This document shows positions 6,995 through 62,578 of a stretch of 64,000 nucleotides of DNA, in pieces; position 1 is the first letter of the stretch, and each line of letters begins with the position of its first letter. The stretch is from Antedon mediterranea (taxonomy: Eukaryota > Echinodermata > Crinoidea > Comatulida > Antedonidae): assembly GCF_964355755.1 (NCBI RefSeq), contig NC_092680.1, forward strand, positions 17,647,001 to 17,711,000, read 5' to 3'. A program made the position numbers and the translations under genes. A model generated the notes under the pieces. The model was not told the origin of the DNA and made no database searches. It was given only the letters and a program-made list of their open reading frames with translations.

Positions 6995-8642
6995 ATGGCT
7001 GAATGTGCAGTAACAAAAATAAATGTACATGTGTTGTTTTTCGCAAAAAGTCGAGAACTAACTGGTACAACGGAGACGTATCTAGATCTTCCAAGTAATA
7101 TTAGTACAATAGAGCTATTGAAACAGTTAATTACATCATATCCAAAGTAAGTTTTAATCCTACTACAATAATACAGTGTGTATCTTGACTGGCCTGTTCT
7201 GTTTTAGGCCTGCCTGTCTATCCTAGCTAGCATAAATAGTCAATACACAACTGTACCGCGTCGCGGCCTACTCAACTCGGCCTTCGAGTGTAGTCAACCT
7301 CGATTGGTGCCATAAGACCTTATTATATACTCTACCCGCATATAAATAGTGCAGTACTGTACTACAGTATGTACTGTATTAGTATTATCATGGTATTATA
7401 TTAGGCGCCGCCTACTAGCCTAGGTATATACCATGGTCCATGGAGTAAAGATTCTTTACTCCATGGATGGTATATACTTGTTATGCGCGATTTGAACGAT
7501 TTGCGCAATTTGAAATTGCGCAACAAAAATCCTTGCGCAATTTGAATTGAAACATGTGTTTCAAATTGCGCAAGCAACGTATTAAATTGCGCAAGTAATC
7601 TGCAAATTGCGCAAGGTTTTTCGACAGATTGTGAAATCATGCACACCCGTATTTTTATAGTAATTTCTAAGAATGATTCAAAATTAAAGATAAATATCGC
7701 ATTTCCTTATTTTAGTAGTGCAAATATTGTTATAAGTTAGCAAACCGACGAAGGAAAACGAAGCGGTGGTGTTCCACCAGGCGGGCGCGGCGCGGGCGGC
7801 CGGCTATACTACTCTAGCCTAGCTAGGGTCTGGACTACTGATACTGACTAGGTTACATGGCCTAGCTTAAACTAATATTAAAAACTTAATTTTTACATTT
7901 ATTTTGATTTATTTCAAGTTACAGTGATAATATTATTTAATTGTAATAATAAATGTTATGTATTTATTACACACATCTTCGCATTTATTATGTTTTATTT
8001 TGAGTTATTTAGTTTCCAATAAATTATTATAATACCGATTGTCTGGTAGAATTTTGTTGCGCAATTTGAAAATTTACAGTTCGTTTTCAAATTGCGCAAA
8101 GGTGTCATATTGCGCAAGAACTATCTATCCTTGCGCAATTTTAAATTGCGCAAGAATTCTTTGCGCAATTTCAAATTGTGCAAGGATTTTTTTGCGCAAT
8201 TTCAAATTGCGCAAATCGTTCAAATCGATGATTTGAATAGACGGACCTCCTCCCTCTCATTATGTTAAAGGCTAGTGGTCAAACAATCTCTATTGATCAT
8301 ACATTCCATTTTCATTGACTATCGACCCATTATCAATCATCAATTTTGGGAAGTTTGTGTTACACAATAACAAAAAAATGGCACTGTCTGTGAGGATGAT
8401 ACCCTGTAGTAAATCCTACCCATTTTTAATCTTCTTTTGAATTACAATGTCTTGCTTGTAGTGTAGCTGAGTTTTAACATATCAATAAACACATGCATCT
8501 CTCTTTTTTGTTTAGACTTGATGTGTTGAAAGAAAATCTAGTTATTGCTGTAAACCAAGAATATGTGCAAGACCGATCGCTACCCCTTGATTTGAAAGAT
8601 AATTCTGAGATTGCAATTATACCACCATTGAGTGGTGGCTAA
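6995..8642 (+). CDS. MOCS2: Molybdopterin synthase small (sulfur-carrier) subunit, MOCS2A
   Basis: Two coding exons, 6995-7146 and 8516-8642, join in phase to give a 92-aa protein, close to the usual MOCS2A length (about 88 aa). It is a MoaD/ubiquitin-fold protein: the segment VLFFAKSRELTG near the N-terminus is typical, and it ends in IPPLSGG. The terminal Gly-Gly is the residue pair that becomes a thiocarboxylate and donates sulfur to precursor Z (cPMP) in molybdenum-cofactor synthesis. The donor is AA|GTAAGT and the acceptor TTTAG|A. The intron (7147-8515) contains a 736-bp TIR transposon. The stop is followed 26 nt later by a donor consistent with splicing directly to the MOCS2B exon, implying a bicistronic mRNA as in vertebrates. 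A TAG just before the start suggests an upstream untranslated exon. Confidence 0.95.
7425..7476. repeat. Near-perfect short hairpin in MOCS2A intron
   Basis: TATACCATGGTCCATGGAG on the left is mirrored by CTCCATGGATGGTATA on the right around a TAAAGATTCTTTA centre, forming a stem of about 23 bp with one unpaired base. It lies 14 bp upstream of the TTGCGCAA-rich transposon and could be a small separate insertion or part of an outer end of it. Confidence 0.8.
7490..8225. mobile_element. Non-autonomous TIR transposon with TTGCGCAA subterminal array
   Basis: The left end begins ATTTGAACGATTTGCGCAAT and the right end is its inverted match, ending ATTGCGCAAATCGTTCAAAT. Inside each end the palindrome TTGCGCAA recurs: about six copies in 7501-7615 and eight in 8055-8215. 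The centre is AT-rich, apart from a GC-rich patch near 7776-7803. There is no transposase frame. Dense subterminal copies of one short palindrome are typical of transposase-binding sites in non-autonomous elements; I cannot assign the superfamily and the target duplication is unclear. It sits wholly inside the MOCS2A intron. Confidence 0.75.
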
Positions 8643-21521: not shown

Positions 21522-28251
<6,730 letters not shown>

Positions 28252-42273: not shown

Positions 42274-44575
42274 TTACGTACGGCCATACTGCGTTGAAAC
42301 ACCGGTTCTCGTCAGATCACCGAAGTTAAGCAATTTACTCTAGTAGCTAGATCAACTTTCGTATGCACTTTGAGGTCCAGAGAATTTGACTTCAGAAATT
42401 GGTTTAGGATGGTCAAACAATCATTATTGGCTTGGTTACACATTTTGAAAATGTGGCGAAAGGTCAAAAGGTCAGGGTGAAAGGTTATCAAACTAAACAC
42501 CAATAAGTCCTTAAATCTCGACAACGACTGGTCACAGCGAGGTAATTTTGGTCTCAAATTGATCAGAAGGTATACATTTATATTCAGTCTAATGGGACAT
42601 TTTAGTCAAAAATGACCGGAAATGCCATTTCTGACCTTTGACCCACACCCCAGGGCATGTATGTATCTCCGTAACTACTGATTGTAGACACTTGAATTTG
42701 GTCTTAAATTGTTTGAAATAAACATTTTGTTATTTGTTGCACATTTTTTAAAATGTTACAAAAGGTCAAAGGGTCAGGGTCAAGGGTTATATGAACAAAT
42801 ATAAATAGATAATTGTATCTCGGCAACTACTCGTCGCAGCAAGTCAATTTTAGTCTCAAAATGTTCAGAAGGCATGCATTTATATTCCGTCTAATGGGAC
42901 ATTTTAGTCAAATTTAGTCAGAAATGCCATTTCTGACCTTTGACCCACATATCATGGCATCTTCATATCTCTGTAAGTACTGGTCGTAGAAACTTAAATT
43001 TGGTATCAAATTGTTCGAAATATACATATTTACATTCATTGTAATAGAAAATGTGGTTAAAAGATGAACAGAAATACTATTACTAATGTTTCAAACAAAA
43101 CAAAAATCTCTACATAACTTATCCAGTAATGTTATGCAATAACTGATACTTTAAATTGTTTCAATTTCAAGTACTTATAGCTCAACGGTTCTTTTCGGAA
43201 TGCTAGAATTGTAACTTGCCATGTGTATCCGATTAAACGCCCCGGGCATTTATTGTTTAAAGGGGTTTTTAGGGGGAGGGGAGGCATCTTTATTTGGAGT
43301 ATAATATGGTAACATGTATAATAAAATAAATACCACCTAGATGTAAAAAAATACAGCACAATTAATATCAAAAAGTCAAAAAAATGCTTGGTAAATTGTA
43401 GATTATGGTAGTTAATGTATATGTTGTGATACAATTATTGTGTAAATGCATGTGGCGGGCGTATTCCACATGATGTTCTATTGGAGGGAATGGTGGCGTT
43501 TATTTGAGGGAGGCTTTTATTCAAATATGATATGAAGATGCCCTGGTATGTGGGTCCAAGGTCAGAAATGGCATTTCTGATCATTTTTACTAAAATGCCC
43601 CATTAGACGGAATATAAATGCATGCCTTCTGAACATTTTGAGATCAAAATTGACTTGCTGCGACCAGTGGTTGCCGAGATACAAGTACCTTTATTTATTT
43701 GTTCATATAACCCTGGACCCTGACCCTTTGACCTTTTGTAACATTTTTCAAAATGTGTAAAAAATAACAAAATATATATTTCGAACAATTTAAAACCAAA
43801 TTCAAGTGTCTACGACCAGTAGTTACGGAGATAAATACATGCCCTGGATTGTGGGTCAAAGGTCAGAAATGTCATTTCCGGTCATTGTTAAGTAAAATGT
43901 CCCATTAGACTGAATATAAATGTATACCTTCTGATAAATTTGAGACCAAAATTACTTCGCTGTGACCAGTGGTTGTTGAGATTTAAGGACATATTGGTGT
44001 TTGGTCTTATGACCTTTCACCCTGACCTTTTGACCTTTCGCCACATTTTCAAAATGTGTAACCAAGCCAAAAATGATTGTTTGACCACCCTAAACCAATT
44101 TCTGAAGTCAAATTCTCTGGACCTCAAAGTGCATACGAAAGTTGATCTAGCTACTAGAGTAATTGGGCCCGCGGTAGCGTACTGGATGGGAGACCGTTTA
44201 GAAATGGCGGCGGGTGCTGTATATACTGGAGAGTGATGGTTTAATGGCAATATCGGACTAGCATGTAATAGGCATGGGTTCGAGGTTATCTGTACCATAC
44301 TAATTGCATCCTTAGGCAAGATGGTTTACTCTCATTGCCTCATCCTTCGGATCGGATGTAAAGCCTTCGGTCCTGTGTACTTAACAGTGCACGTTAAAGA
44401 ACTTGGTACACTATTCGAAAAGAGTAGAGGATCGTCTCCCGGTGTGCTGATCTGGTAGGCGCTGCACTGCTGGCTGCCGTGGGTTCGTGGAGGGCCTAAT
44501 CCGAATTTTCTCAGTTTCCAGTTAAGCTTGAGGACAAATATAAACACCTTTACATTTACCTTTACCTTTATTGAC
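42274..44575 (+). mobile_element. 5S-rRNA-derived SINE, split by a foldback transposon
   Basis: The left piece (about 42274-42335) matches the 5' half of 5S rRNA: CGGCCATACTGCGTTGAAAC then ACCGGTTCTCGTCAGATCAC and CGAAGTTAAGCAA. The right piece (44165-about 44222) matches the 3' half: GGGCCCG...ACTGGATGGGAGACCG...GGGTGCTGT, including the C-box of the internal pol III promoter. After this comes a SINE body (CATCCTTAGGCAAGATGGTT, GGATGTAAAGCCTTCGGTCC, ACGTTAAAGAACTTGG) and a TTTACCTTTACC-type tail ending near 44575. The head plus body suggests a SINE3/DeuSINE-type element; that subfamily assignment is inference. Confidence 0.85.
42336..44161. mobile_element. Foldback DNA transposon with ~640-bp inverted arms
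   Basis: The ends TACTCTAGTAGCTAGATCAA and its exact inverse TTGATCTAGCTACTAGAGTA lie at 42336 and 44161, flanked by ATT on both sides (42333-42335, 44162-44164), a possible 3-bp target duplication. The left arm (to about 42971) and right arm (from about 43529) are inverted copies with high identity at the ends and lower identity inward. Each arm is itself two diverged ~302-bp units. The loop (about 42972-43528) contains a GGGCGTTTATT-type dispersed repeat related to 16027-16262. There is no transposase frame. It is inserted in the 5S part of the SINE. Confidence 0.9.
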
Positions 44576-45697: not shown

Positions 45698-48625
45698 TCA
45701 TGTACAGTACCAGATACCGACCAGATGATGTTCTGCTATGTCCCAATGCTTCTGTGCCAACAGTAAGCTACCTTGCTGCAGATAAAGATCACCAAGGCTA
45801 TCCATAACTTCAATAAACAATTCATCTTTCTCATAGGCTATCTCTTCCATAATTTCCAAACAGTTTTGGAAGTAACTCAAAGCCTTGCTTAGTTCGCCTT
45901 GAATCATTTTAAGACGTGCAGCTTGAAAGAGTGACTCAAGCGTATCCGGAACACTACCTAAAATATCATTTCTAATACGATATGCATGTTCAAAACTTGT
46001 CTGAGCTTGGCTGTAATCTCCCTGTTTCTTGTACACCAAACCTCGACAATGGTGGATATTTGAGATATCGATATGCATTCCACCCAGAGATGTTCTCATT
46101 TTTAATGCTTTATCCAGAAGTATGTGTGCTTTATCGTAATTACGGTCAACATTACATGTATAGTTTGCCACGTTTATCAGCGAATCTATGACGTCTGTGC
46201 ATGGCTCGCGCTTAAAAAACGTCTTTAATTTTAATCCTAAATTCGCATGATCCAAAGCCTGTTTATGATTACCTATTTGATGATAGGATTCACTCATGTT
46301 GTTATAGATGCTTCCAATCGATGGGTGGCTCACCCAGAGGTTCTTTCGTATCTCTAGAGCTTGTTTGTGATAGTCTAGGGCAAGTCTTGGTTTCCCTGTA
46401 AAACAATTCATTAACTTTAAGTTAAAATAAGCAACTCCTCGTTTGAAATGCCATTAATGCAATGGACGCAGATATGGAGGAGCTTTCTCTGGGCCTACAT
46501 GTCCCATAATAATAATAATAATAATAAAAAAATAATAATAATAATAATAATACAGATTTCTATAGCGCACTTCGTCACCAATGGTGCTCAAGGCGCTTTT
46601 GATTGCATAGTATGAAATCACCCATGCCGTAATGTAAATAAGTTAGTCTTTTGGTATTGGTCATTGGATTCTTTTTGTGTATGAGAAAAAAAGTCTAAAA
46701 AAATCTATTCCATTCTGAATGTTGCATAACATATTTCCGTTTGGATCCGCCACATACGATAATATAATTTGTAGGTTACAAACCAATTGCTGCATATGTT
46801 AGCCCTAAGCAAGATACAACAGATGCCATTGTACGTTGTCCTCCAGATATGTCGTTGACAAATCCAACCTGAAGACAGCGTTTTAACATTTGTTCAGCTT
46901 TCTTAAAGTTGCTGTACAAGAAATAATTTTTAAATAAATTATTCTCTACAATATATTGACCAAATACACCGGGCTCTCCTAAATATCACTCCTACCATGC
47001 CAAACCAAGCGTTAACAGTATAAAATTTAAATCATACGAATTAGTATTTAGAGAAAACTTCTTACCTTAGAGCTTCATCAAACTTTCCATTGACATAACG
47101 GCTAAATCCTATATGGTTAAAAAGCCATGCCAAATCAACACTGTCACCGAATGGCGATAAACATTCTAAAGCTCTCTTATTTTGTATATCTGCCAATTTG
47201 TAATTGGTCTGTGCATGACCCAACACTTGGCCGTATCCAGACAGCATCAAACCCAATTGTTTCTTCATTGAAAGACCGCGACTCTCCGCCGTTCGAACAC
47301 ACGCCGCATAAAACTCGATAGATTCCTTTCGCGGAAGGAAATTTATTATCAGGTATTCTGCCTCGTATGCAATGTCAATAAAGAGTTTGTAATTTTCGGA
47401 GGGACTCAATGCAGCTTCTTCTAACATCTTCTGAATGTTTATCATCTCCATCGAAAATAATGAGAGTTGTTTACACGATTCTTCTTCGACGACTGGTGCT
47501 ATAGCCAGGAGCAGCTTCCCGTAAAAAAACACAATAACGATTTCGAAGACTAAGTAGCTGCTCTTTTGGAAGCGAAGACAATTCATCTGATAAATATTCA
47601 CGCAAGAAATCATGGATATCAAAACGATCACACAAGACGTCCCTGGCAACGAGTGAACGAATTGCTAATGGAATAAGAACATTTTGTTTAGCAAGTGCTG
47701 GGTTGTTATCAGGCAATTCAAGAATGTGTGCTACCGCGTCAGCATTAAATGACGACGGGATAACAGACAACTTGATGTACTCATTCTTTAATATACATCT
47801 TAACCTGTCGACTGACGATTTGATGACATGGTGAACTTGTTGTTCTTTGCAATAGTTGTTTTTGCTCATGGCCTCTAATCGATCTTTGTCCAACAAATCT
47901 ACAAGTTCTTTTGGACAATATGAATCCGCATCTAGGAGGAGAGTTGCAGCAATTACCAAGGCAAGTGGGATTCCAGCACACAGTTCAGCGAGTGTTTCCT
48001 TCGTGTTAGCTGTAAAATCAATGTTTACCGTAATAGACGTCAACAGGTCAATGGAGTCTTGGATGTCCAGTGGCTTTAAACGATGGTGATACACATTAGC
48101 GTGCATCGACAGAAACCTGTATTTAAACCTGGAGTTTATTAGAAGCAATACTTTGGAGGTATTGACAAGTCTTGTACAAAAGTCTACAAACCGAGTCTGC
48201 AACTCATTAGACGTATCAACAGACAAGTGTTCCGCCGAATCAAATATCACTAGACAAGAACGACCAAGCCGCTTAAAATGTTTTATAAGTGCATTGTCAG
48301 AGCACATTGGAAGTCCTAAGGCAGCAGATAGCTTGACAAGGACTGTTCGGAAATCTGTTACACGCCTTAGTTCAATAAGATACGCATCCAGATGATAATG
48401 CGCTTGGTGACAATCGTTTACAAGCTGGTGCTTAATTTCTTTCGAAAGACGTGTTTTGCCAATCATTGGTTCTCCTGTGAGTAGCATAACCCGAATACTC
48501 TGTTTGAATTTTAGCTCAGGTTGTAAGCCAAGTACGGCATTCATTAGTTTCTCTTTTAAATGTTTTAATTCCTTTTCCCGACCAATGAATCTGAACTCCT
48601 CATACGTTTCATATCCTCCTTCCAT
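45698..48625 (-). pseudogene. STAND/NB-ARC-like NTPase with TPR repeats, one-base frameshift
   Basis: Minus strand, exons 48625-47066, 46911-46784 and 46395-45698. The ATG at 48625 is preceded four codons earlier by an in-frame stop. The N-terminal ~370 residues are a STAND P-loop NTPase: Walker A GEPMIGKTRLS, Walker B CLVIFDSAEH, a sensor-like LLLINSRFKYR and the GIPLAL motif. About 350 residues of TPR repeats follow (e.g. ALDYHKQALEIRKNL, GDYSQAQTSFEHAYRIRN), like kinesin-light-chain-type TPRs. The reading frame breaks at a run of seven T (plus-strand A, 47523-47529): the upstream frame ends soon after RNRYCVF, and the TPR frame resumes one base over. Discounting one base gives about 794 aa. 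It could be a sequencing error, an allele or a true pseudogene; both halves look otherwise intact. The role is unknown; related proteins act as signalling scaffolds. Confidence 0.8.
46500..46620 (-). mobile_element. SINE 3' tail fragment, reverse orientation
   Basis: An AAT/ATT microsatellite is followed by CAGATTTCTATAGCGCACTT and GTGCTCAAGGCGCTTTT. Read in reverse, GCGCTATAGAAATC plus ATT repeats resembles the tail of the SINE at 5552. It lies in intron 2 of the STAND/TPR gene. Confidence 0.55.
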
Positions 48626-50516
48626 TTTGTTAAATCAGCATAATCTGGAAAATCATTGTACATACAACTTAAACCAAATAGTAGGATAGTATGGAGAGAC
48701 ACGCCATTTTGGCGATAGTTGTCTTTGACAGCTTTCGTCTCTCCACAGTGCTCACTTTGTATGTATCACTGAAAGGGGAAAAATAAATAGACAACATGCA
48801 AATGGAGAGGGTAGGGATCTATAAATGACATTGGCAAACTCAGATATCTTTGTTTGCTTGTTTTAATTGTTTCTTCTCTGCACACATATTGAAATGATAT
48901 AGTATCCCAGTTTACAAGAAAAACATCTAATAATATTAAGAAACAGCAGCAGGAGGTTTAATTGCCATAAGCCGCAACAAGATACTTTAGATTATATTTG
49001 AAAGAAAGAAGATTAGAAAGAGATTTAAATGCTTAATAAATTCCATAATTTTGGGTCATTGTAAACAATTTATTTTCTTCTCCTCATTACGTTCCATAGT
49101 AATAGCCTCTATAGCATATGGCTAAAAAGTAGTATAATAAATATAGAGACAAGGGAGTCAAGAGAGCGCCAATCTCTCAATACAGAATTACAATTACAAT
49201 CATAGGCTTCTATTAACTAATTCTACATAATAGGTACCGTAGGCCAACAATAATAATCGTTCAAATATCATTGCAAAAACCATAGAAGCACCTATTTTCC
49301 CCCCAAGTGTCCCGTCCCCTTAATAGGGGTTAGTATATCACCCGTGAAGGTGTCCTCTTATTAATGGGGGTGTCTTGTGAATAGGAGTGTTCCAAAGTAG
49401 GTGTTCTAAAGTATACACAATTTGCTCCAACCTAAATTGAAGTCCGGTACGGGAAAACAATTAGGCCTACTTGGCATGGCGGAAGCATCGCATAGTAAGT
49501 AACTTCGGATGTTCTTACATGGGTTGGGTGCTATATAGGCCTAACTACTTACAAAGGTTGTTTTGAATATTTGTACTGTATATATCATTGTTCTAAAACA
49601 GTCTGTTCCACTGAATTCACTCTGAACTCAAATTATTGCTCCATCACCGAATAATTTATCCAATCCATGCTTCTTAAACTGAACAAAACGAACTGTTAGT
49701 ATATATTAATCACGGTTGTTTTCCATCTTTACTTCCTGAACTAAAAACTGATTCGGTCGTTCGGTGAAATTGCCAGCGTCTTATTCTTGTTTTTGATATT
49801 CATATCAGCCAATCGGAGGCAACTTGTGTTGTAGCTCGTATACTATTTTTCAATATGCCAAGAATGTATTAGTGTCCACGGAAGGCATATTAATTACCTA
49901 TTTTACTGTAGGCCTATGCCCAATAACTATTACCGTAATAAGGGATCTGATGGATGGGGACTATACAGTATATACACATATATCTCTTGATTTTCGATAA
50001 TTTCGCAGATAAAAATGTTGCTTAAAGCTAATTAGGTACAGTTATGAATTTTAAATATAATATTTGGTTAATTGTAGGCCTACATAAAAAAAATCAAATA
50101 TTGTACATAGGCTAAATAAAAACATGGTCGAACAAAAGCAAACACAATTTTTTTGAAGTTTTTTCAGAAGTTTTTTTGTATTGTCTTTGACATTCTGATG
50201 ATACTCTAAAATGTTTTTTGGACAGGGACAATTCCCATCCAACTTTTTCCTCTTTAATTCTCACAGCAGAACCCACGCAATAATTTTTTATAGCTATAGG
50301 TTACTAAGATTTGACAGTTTTTTTGTTTTTTTGCGTGATAATTGGATTAAGATTGAAATGTCGCCCTCATCATTCACTCTAGTTCACGCATGCGCTTCTT
50401 GTATAAGAGCTAGTTGCTTAGCGCAGGTAAACTCCTCTCACACTTTGTAAACAATAAGTTCTGACCTGCTGGCTACATTTTTATTTTAAAACTCACTGTA
50501 TATCAAACTGAATAGC
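48626..50516. other. Head-to-head intergenic region, STAND/TPR gene and CFAP161
   Basis: The two genes start 1.9 kb apart and diverge, so both promoters lie here. No coding exon is seen. The TAGGCCTA palindrome appears near 49464, 49541, 49910 and 50080. I cannot place core promoter elements reliably. Confidence 0.55.
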
Positions 50517-60000: not shown

Positions 60001-61623
60001 ACCCCTGCCTAAGTCTATTGTTAATGCACTCCTGTTTAAAATCTAATGGATCAGTTCCTGGAAGTCCAGAGTACAAAGCTGTAAAAAAGGTGTGCAAGAC
60101 ATTTTTCTATGCTGCAATGAATTTAAAAAGTTTGCATCATGCAAAATGTATATTTATAGGAATAAGATTTAAAAAACAATACTGTATTGGTGTATTACTG
60201 GATACTTACCAATGCAAAATTCCAGAAATTCTGGTTCATATAGAATATCAAGTAGGCTGTCATAGTACCTGTTGATGTAAGCGAGAGAGATGAGCGCCCT
60301 CAAGAACTGAAATGGAAATTGCTGACATTGCTGTTTGCGCTGAAGCATTAGGTCAACACACTTTTCAAAAAAAGTGTCTGCATCAGAAGGTTCGTAATTT
60401 AATCGTGTAAATGCCCTGAGCAACATCCAAGTGCTCTTGATACGAAGCTTTGTTGTTGTTTCTTCAACCACCCTCTTTGCCACACTGTCCATGAATGGTT
60501 GACTAAGAACTCTGAATCTAGACAATGCAAATGCATTGTGTGCTAGCATCTCTAATGTCATGTCTGAAAACTTCTCTGGCAAATGCTTGACTGCTACCTC
60601 TAGAAACTTGTGGTGGAAGAAATAACATCTTGATAAACTTCGAAGAACAACTGTTAAATCATGCGCAGAAATGTCTTGTATATTCCGGGACACACGGTCC
60701 CCAATTTGATACATTAATTTGTCATTATTGTCAACTTTTCCTTTACATTTTATAATCGCAGAGCAGATTATAATAACACCATTTAAAGACAGACTATCAA
60801 CATTATCCTCAATCAATTTCAAAATGTCATTTAAAAAAGGCATGGGGACATTTTGATATATACCGATATTGTAACAAAGTTGAAGAATGTTTGGTGTTGA
60901 GAGCTGGGTTACAACGTTTCTCATGACTGCCATCATCTTCAGATGATAACTTTGAGATCTGTAACCCGATACTAACCACCAATCTCCAACTAGGAAGATG
61001 TTGTTTAATGTCAACGTCTCTATTCTCTGAAGGCACTGTGATTCCACAATGTGAATATTCTTAATATCACATTTCATTCTATACAACAAGATAAGTGCAT
61101 CAATGAACAAGGCGTCCGACATCGAATTTAACTTCTCTACTAATAATGAAGAAACTTCACCTTGAGATGTTTTGCTGGTCAAGACATCATTGATGGTTAT
61201 CTCTTGCAAACCAATGTGTGCCATCAAGCCATTAAAGTCAATAACTTTAGAAAAATCTTCACTTTTATAATTCTTCTCTACGATCTTCATACTTGTGGAT
61301 AATGATGGAATATCATCAAGGAATTTTCTTCTAAATTGTGAAGCTTTGATTCCCAATATACCTGGCTCTATGTTTGTGTCATTTCCAGGAAAGGCAATAT
61401 TTAGTACGTGTTTAGCAGCATTACTTCGTTGAGTAACGTACACTCGTGATTTCCATTTCTTCTTCTGTTTCTTCCTAGCAGAAGTGGCAAGATTTTCCTT
61501 GACAACTGAAGTTTCTGCAACCTCTCCTGGGGGAAAAGAGGTTGATGATTTACAGTATGAGCCTAGCAGTATCTTGCAAGTGCTCACATGAAGTGGTCGC
61601 CTTCTTATTAATGTTGACAGCAT
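57027..61623 (-). CDS. FAST kinase domain-containing protein (mitochondrial RNA metabolism)
   Basis: Six coding exons on the minus strand (61623-60210, 59771-59674, 59584-59419, 58926-58845, 58630-58516, 57128-57027) join in phase to 658 aa. The start MLSTLIRRRPLHVSTCKI follows an untranslated acceptor (TTTCAG| at 61651), and the basic, Ser-rich N-terminus fits a mitochondrial targeting peptide. The middle is a series of helical repeats with FAST_1-like features (FLVGDWWL, LMYQIGDRVSRNIQDIS, LEMLAHNAFALSRF, LRAFTRLNYEP). The last three exons encode a RAP domain (LAVLLISQSHC, QAMKVRHLQKLGYTVKQV and KTKEWSE). FASTKD proteins bind and process mitochondrial mRNAs. Which of FASTKD1-5/TBRG4 is the ortholog cannot be decided by eye. 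MITEs occupy introns 3 and 5. Confidence 0.88.
57311..57466. mobile_element. MITE, CTGTCTACACTATCAAACT family, copy 5 (best preserved)
   Basis: The left end GCTGTCTACACTATCAAACT and inverted right end GTTTGATAATGTAGACAGAG plus C are well preserved. Perfect CCAAATATGG at 57377 and CCATATTTGG at 57409 flank TGACATCATCATG. In intron 5 of the FASTK-domain gene. Confidence 0.92.
59157..59399. mobile_element. MITE with CACTTACGATT inverted ends in FASTK-gene intron 3
   Basis: The left CACACTTACGATTGGGTCTT, GGGCTGGCCCAG is mirrored by the right CTGGGCTAGCCCAAATCGTA, AGTGG. It is about 240 bp with no coding capacity beyond chance frames. It ends about 20 bp before the donor end of exon 3 (59419). 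Confidence 0.8.
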
Positions 61624-62578
61624 TATTACAAGCCTCAGATGCACACTATTCTGAAATAGATTCAATATTAAAACTTTGTTATGTATAGTCATGCTTGTTG
61701 ATTATAATATGGATGTTTACACTTGGACCTATTCAAAGGAAGGACCATATGTCCAGCATCCTTTTTTTACTACTTTTATCTACAAATTGTCTACAGTGAC
61801 TAGAAATACTGTACGTATGACTGTCAGTGTCAGCCGTAAACCTGTACAAATATTCTGGCAATGGATTCTGATACTCTTACCTTTTGCCAAAGGGGAATTT
61901 TTTAATATTTAACAAACAAATAATGTGTTTGGAAATTTCTGGAAGGTGCCTTGCATCCATTGTTACTACACTATGCAGATGCCCAAGATAGTTTTTAAAA
62001 GCACCCCTTCTATAGCATGGCTATGCTTTTATAAATTCTCCCAAAGCCAAAACTTCTTCTTCAAGTTTGGACCTTTGTGGCCCACATAATAATAAAATAT
62101 TCACTCCTCATATCATTCATAAATACTAAGTTCTAAGATTTTGAGAAAAGGATGCAGAATAGGGGTCAAAATCTTCACCCTCTGTTCCTTTAATTAACTT
62201 CCAAAAGATAGTGTAACATTAATATTAATCAGTATATTTTAACCAAAATTAATTTAATTCCAAACAAAAAAATTGATTAGGCATAAATCTTATAAATTTT
62301 TTTTAATGATAATATGCAAATTTACTTTACTATACAACACATTTTAGATTGATAATAAAAAAAAACATATTTTTTAAATAATTGTTTCCCATCCCTGTTT
62401 GGTTGTTTATTATAGATATTCCATGTTCAGATTGATTATGTTAGGTTCACTCTGGTACGTTAAAATCACTTTGAAATACTCATTTACTAAAGTATTACGA
62501 CATAACTTGACCAATGTTCTTTAAGTTATTAAGAGGCATATGCATCTACATTGTATTGTAAAATTGCAGTTTTTTAAT
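61624..62578. other. Gap between TUBE1 stop and FASTK-domain gene start
   Basis: The genes are head-to-tail on the minus strand with 955 bp between. It includes an untranslated exon edge for the FASTK-domain gene (acceptor at 61651) and the TUBE1 3' UTR. No further gene seen. Confidence 0.55.

Follow-up and report, generated by a model that had tools for sequence, protein, structure and literature searches.

Little is understood about transposon ends that are long and internally repetitive; a binding protein has been mapped in only a few cases, of which Galileo is one. This Drosophila element of the P superfamily has long foldback-like TIRs that contain several binding sites for its THAP-domain transposase (PMC3688188). 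The element described here, which lies in a 64-kb window (the whole stretch of DNA analysed) and is termed family A, is similar to Galileo in its long, internally repetitive inverted arms, in the repetition of short sites at each end, and in having non-autonomous derivatives. It differs in its 3-bp target duplications, in that no P-type transposase was seen, and in the site itself, which is an AGGTCA direct repeat rather than a THAP site. Moreover, the binding protein of Galileo has been mapped, whereas protein binding to the present site is predicted from the DNA sequence.

Academ transposons, which Kapitonov and Jurka are said to have described in 2010, reportedly encode an XPG nuclease, and their target-site duplication is 3-4 bp long. 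They are listed as a superfamily of DNA transposons in PMC4455052. The likeness to Academ lies in the XPG-like motifs of coding elements that share a module with family A and in the 3-bp duplications of families A and B, but family A is without coding sequence, and the motifs were recognised by eye.

AGGTCA direct repeats are also spread by Alu repeats, which carry DR2 retinoic-acid and HNF4-type sites (PMC1785376, PMC3252374). Family A is likewise a mobile element spreading such repeats; unlike in Alu, which is a retroposon, exact DR1 sites occur here in the subterminal repeats of several DNA-transposon families. The CERP2/CELE2 MITEs of Caenorhabditis are bound by HIM-17 and have been shown to be used as promoters (PMC9757741). 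They share with the present element MITE-type inverted repeats and paired motifs in a fixed orientation, but their motifs and their clade are different, and the demonstrated promoter use belongs to CERP2/CELE2. The occurrence of one 13-bp site across several families and repeat contexts of a single genome makes its binder directly testable.

Structure and insertion site of the family A element

Family A is a foldback-type, or MITE, non-autonomous DNA transposon, with long inverted arms, defined ends, a target duplication, many copies, and no transposase gene (Table 1). The arms are complementary across 578 nt (93%; 42335-42912 and 43585-44162), and each of them contains a 302-bp unit twice in tandem, with the two units 78% alike. 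Over its outer 304 bp, the element has 97-100% identity to at least 40 genomic places, the window copy included. Fuller relatives of ~3.4 kb (3.36-3.39 kb; L031, L032, and L038) have arms of ~1.27 kb, and five of the six further copies that could be traced to both ends are flanked by 3-bp duplications. In the family A relatives examined, there was neither a transposase gene nor any trace of XPG-like coding remnants, and the ends of family A, TACTCTAG, were not found on any coding element.

Table 1. Positions of the family A element, its insertion target, and its repeated sites in the window
Feature	Position	Strand	Remarks
Family A element, foldback-type non-autonomous DNA transposon	42336-44161		Ends TACTCTAG...CTAGAGTA
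Left target-site duplication	42333-42335		ATT; sequence
Right target-site duplication	44162-44164		ATT; sequence
Left arm	42336-42912	+	93% complementary to right arm
Right arm	43585-44161	-	93% complementary to left arm
Left-arm tandem units, 2 x 302-bp	42443-42739, 42745-43041 (42443-43041)	+	78% alike
5S-rRNA-derived sequence, insertion target	42276-42335, resumes 44165	+	Rfam RF00001
~130-bp module	42508-42644	+	ATCTC..AACxACTGG ... GACCGGAAATG ... TGACCTTTGACCC; common to other transposon families
DR2-type site AGGTCAAAAGGTCA	42461-42474	+	Within longest invariant stretch of 30 copies (42457-42474)
DR1 site GGGTCAAAGGTCA	42632-42644	-	Forward-strand letters TGACCTTTGACCC; direct reading and scan
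DR2-type site AGGTCAAAGGGTCA	42763-42776	+	Varies between copies
DR1 site GGGTCAAAGGTCA	42934-42946	-	Forward-strand letters TGACCTTTGACCC; direct reading and scan
DR1 site with one mismatch, GGGTCCAAGGTCA	43552-43564	+	Scan
DR2-type site AGGTCAAAGGGTCA	43721-43734	-	Direct reading
DR1 site GGGTCAAAGGTCA	43853-43865	+	Scan
DR2-type site AGGTCAAAAGGTCA	44023-44036	-	Direct reading

The insertion target is derived from 5S rRNA. A match to RF00001 from 42276 (32.4 bits, E 3.8e-4) was obtained in a permissive Rfam search at a score under the gathering score, which could be explained by the interruption of the 5S-derived sequence by the family A element. It was the sole credible match of the permissive search, and there was no Rfam match at gathering scores. 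The two parts of the split sequence, 42276-42335 and 44165-44570, comprise a 5S-derived head, further sequence, and ACCTTT repeats at the end, and the interrupted repeat is probably a 5S-type SINE.

The DR1 site and its module across the genome

Eight AGGTCA direct repeats in symmetric positions of the arms, more than expected by chance, had been claimed in the original prediction. All eight were found where it had placed them, by direct reading and by a scan, and the DR1 sites among them consist of two directly repeated RGGTCA half-sites with a spacer of 1. At one mismatch or less, RGGTCAAAGGTCA has six matches in the window compared with 0.09 expected from shuffles, in agreement with an excess over chance; however, the eight sites do not represent eight independent events, because they descend from two that were copied with the 302-bp tandem unit and then with the inverted arms. 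The ancestral pair is a DR2-type AGGTCAAAAGGTCA and, 171 bp further on, an inverted DR1 GGGTCAAAGGTCA.

The proposed comparison of these sites with neutral decay between copies pointed mostly to constraint. The site at 42461-42474 showed no difference in 30 family A copies, for which 5.3 were expected, suggesting constraint, and in a wider family A set, differences amount to 0.4% at the DR1 site of 42632 and 1.0% at that of 42934, compared with 4.9% elsewhere. By contrast, the DR2-type site at 42763 differs by 7.3% in the same set, against the same 4.9%. The within-family test is a weak one because the copies are young (97-100%) and related, and their differences are few and shared by descent.

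The ~130-bp module and its 13-mer are also present in families B, C, and D, which have other ends. Families B and C were reached via the 13-mer, and family D via homology to the module of a coding relative, L078. Family B has the ends TAGACTAG, 149-bp repeats, and 3-bp duplications in both copies tested, and its arms encode a fragment with XPG-like motifs. Both arms carry such gene fragments, which are oppositely oriented and separated by ~1.8 kb (L033, L037, and further pairs); the pairs occur at dozens of loci and represent a foldback derived from the end of a gene. In family C (L034-L036), the spacing is 164 bp, the orientation of DR1 is opposite to that in the other families, and the arms reach 1.3 kb with 99.7% identity; reading frames for reverse transcriptase, of two kinds, lie between these arms and are presumably nested insertions.

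Over seven modules from the four families, DR1 is the best-conserved 13-bp window, with 94% identity compared to a module mean of 62%, and none of 113 non-overlapping module windows equals it, although this comparison is biased because several of the modules were found through DR1. Two checks are free of this bias. Family D, which was found by module homology, shows AGGTCAAAGGTCA without a mismatch in each of the three copies read. When modules were anchored on another 13-mer, 18 of the 28 anchors had an exact RGGTCANRGGTCA at 21-29 bp, in which the spacer is always A. An ETS-like block, ACCGGAAAT or its one-base variants, also recurs in the modules of families A, B, C, and D and in those of the coding elements, and its distance to DR1 is fixed at 21 bp, or at 29 bp in family D.

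In the 354-Mb genome, there are 3,581 exact matches to RGGTCAAAGGTCA and 25 for the reversed controls, with 1287 for GGGTCAAAGGTCA and 2294 for AGGTCAAAGGTCA compared to 8 and 17, respectively, when these are read backwards. The DR1 count is 3.4 times that of the well-conserved module 13-mer AATGACCGGAAAT (1062 exact matches, 9 for its control) and seven times that of TGGTCTCAAATTG (501). Direct repeats of RGGTCA exceed their reversed controls most strongly at a spacing of 1 (5636 vs 71, 79-fold), followed by spacings of 2 (1522 vs 87, 17-fold), 4 (1204 vs 148, 8-fold), and 3 (600 vs 90, 7-fold). Among 100 listed places for each form, a neighbour within 6 kb was found for 72 of GGGTCAAAGGTCA and 69 of AGGTCAAAGGTCA, where 4 and 6 were expected, and the listed opposite-strand neighbours 0.6-6 kb apart are in the order -..+ in 34 cases and +..- in three. 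The DR1 sites are often arranged in tandem and often mirrored at both ends of elements of 1-5 kb. A literature search for the site combined with transposons found no earlier report. Separately, AGGTCAGTAGAGGTCA (DR4) overlapping AGGTCAAAAGGTCA (DR2) forms arrays with a period of ~370 bp at C1:7151255-7155588 and C1:8158448-8159904, of which the one at 7.15 Mb is arranged in inverted halves; they make up a further repeat family based on AGGTCA half-sites.

Coding relatives of the module

The module accompanies genes whose protein product, of ~1,400 aa, has motifs like those of XPG nucleases. Full-length genes of this type, related to the family B fragment, are spread through the genome, and two of them were read. 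L078 contains an open frame of 1360 aa preceded by a 161-aa piece; in L077, the frame for a protein of this kind is broken. Visual inspection revealed XPG-like motifs in family B as well as in L077 and L078; those of the coding relatives are VDGMALL, EEADT, SPDTDV, and SGCDTTSAF. A Pfam search with the XPG-like proteins gave no family match above the curated cut-off, and a PDB sequence search gave no match; AlphaFold models of the XPG-like region have mean pLDDT values of 36 and 49, and a fold search on them gave noise. A scan of related coding proteins, which come from elements with other ends than those of family A, found no THAP domain.

The module of L078 lies directly downstream of the gene, and all ten near-identical L078-type modules, L078 included, adjoin coding-gene matches. 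On the 3′ side of the genes, which is the DNA covered here, tandem repeats are found in all six coding lineages examined. DR1 is present in three of these, downstream of the gene and in three unrelated repeat contexts: within the module in L078/L082, as AGGTCAAAGGTCA inside a different ~400-bp repeat in L077, and as GGGTCAAAGGTTA inside a different 289-bp repeat in L079. The other three lineages, L080, L081, and L083, lack DR1 on this side. The repeats that carry DR1 in L077 and L079 do not contain the ETS-like block. A further DR1 at 7902, at the far end of L077, was rejected as a site of L077 itself since it lies in an inserted family A copy (7607 onwards).

Possible roles of the DR1 site

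We propose, with moderate confidence and from sequence comparisons, that the DR1 13-mer, the conserved core of the module, could be a protein-binding site used in cis for transposition, with mobilisation by the XPG-type protein or a partner. The long inverted arms of family A are made up of DR1-bearing subterminal repeat modules, a protein would bind the 13-mer in cis, and the several mirrored copies near each end may help to assemble or specify an end-pairing complex. Family A would most likely be mobilised by the XPG-type protein or a partner of it, because the module is shared with the elements that encode this protein; the linkage of family A to these genes runs only through the non-coding module. 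Geneless elements need only what mobilisation requires, and their keeping, multiplying, and mirroring of the DR1 module at both ends argues for a binding site. An unrelated transposase as the binder would match a nuclear-receptor DR1 exactly only by chance, which counts against the proposal. It is also weakened by the three coding lineages that lack DR1, by the position of the site solely 3′ of the genes in the DNA covered, and by the failure to find a coding element with the ends of family A or a trace of the XPG-like gene within it. The original prediction had left open whether the repeats are sites of the transposon itself or a mobile enhancer. The former has gained support from the 13-mer being the best-kept part of a cross-family module and from its varied contexts beside coding elements and its presence at both ends, and it is better supported than the enhancer reading.

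The exact fit to DR1 raises the alternative that host nuclear receptors of the RXR, HNF4, or COUP-TF class bind the sites, by which the transposons would gain transcriptional input and their copies may act as enhancers. With its A spacer and CAAAG core, RGGTCAAAGGTCA is a classic DR1 of the kind that HNF4 and RXR favour (PMC3252374), and receptors could plausibly bind it in vitro. The preference for DR1 among DR1-DR4 spacings is in line with this alternative, and a host factor of fixed specificity would explain one site in unrelated repeat contexts; the forms fixed in different families vary at purine positions that receptors tolerate, but this is partly a product of the search pattern and does not prove receptor binding. 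In primates, Alu likewise spreads DR2 and HNF4-type sites (PMC1785376, PMC3252374). Nevertheless, elements without a gene retain and amplify these sites at both ends, although promoter input is of no use to them there, and the sites detected in coding elements are downstream of the gene. This alternative appears rather unlikely.

It is a little more doubtful still that the XPG-type lineage made a host nuclear receptor, or a receptor-like protein, essential for end recognition and thereby spread more than 3,500 perfect DR1 sites, in mirrored pairs, through the genome. A host receptor as the binder would link transposition with a conserved transcription factor and account for the large stock of ready-made DR1 sites, and a binder encoded by the transposon would be a transposon protein with receptor-like specificity.

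The sites might also have no function and be abundant only through the abundance of the repeats, their conservation reflecting recent descent or gene conversion between repeats. The youth of the family A copies, with few differences shared by descent, and the variation of the DR2 site at 42763 would fit this explanation. It is made improbable by the prominence of the 13-mer between families that are otherwise ~62% alike, by the unrelated contexts of DR1 in L077 and L079, and by the excess of DR1 over AATGACCGGAAAT and TGGTCTCAAATTG. Lastly, a promoter or germline regulatory unit acting via a transposase-derived host factor, with ACCGGAAAT as a second input, could draw on the HIM-17 precedent (PMC9757741) and on the recurrence of this block in families A-D and the coding elements at a fixed distance from DR1, but is very improbable given that the sites of coding relatives are 3′ of the genes and that L077 and L079 have DR1 repeats without the block.

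Other features of the window

Another inverted-repeat structure with satellite-like arms is found at 22100-23755, where arrays of GGACAACTACCCCC-type units of 15-17 bp and their reverse complement surround a central 22-bp array. At 24050-25812, a 28-bp unit containing TAGGCCTA is present in 61 head-to-tail copies that are 95% alike. Two host-type genes lie on the reverse strand: one at 45698-48634 for an AAA/NB-ARC-like NTPase with TPR repeats, and one at 60169-61701 for a FAST-kinase-domain protein.
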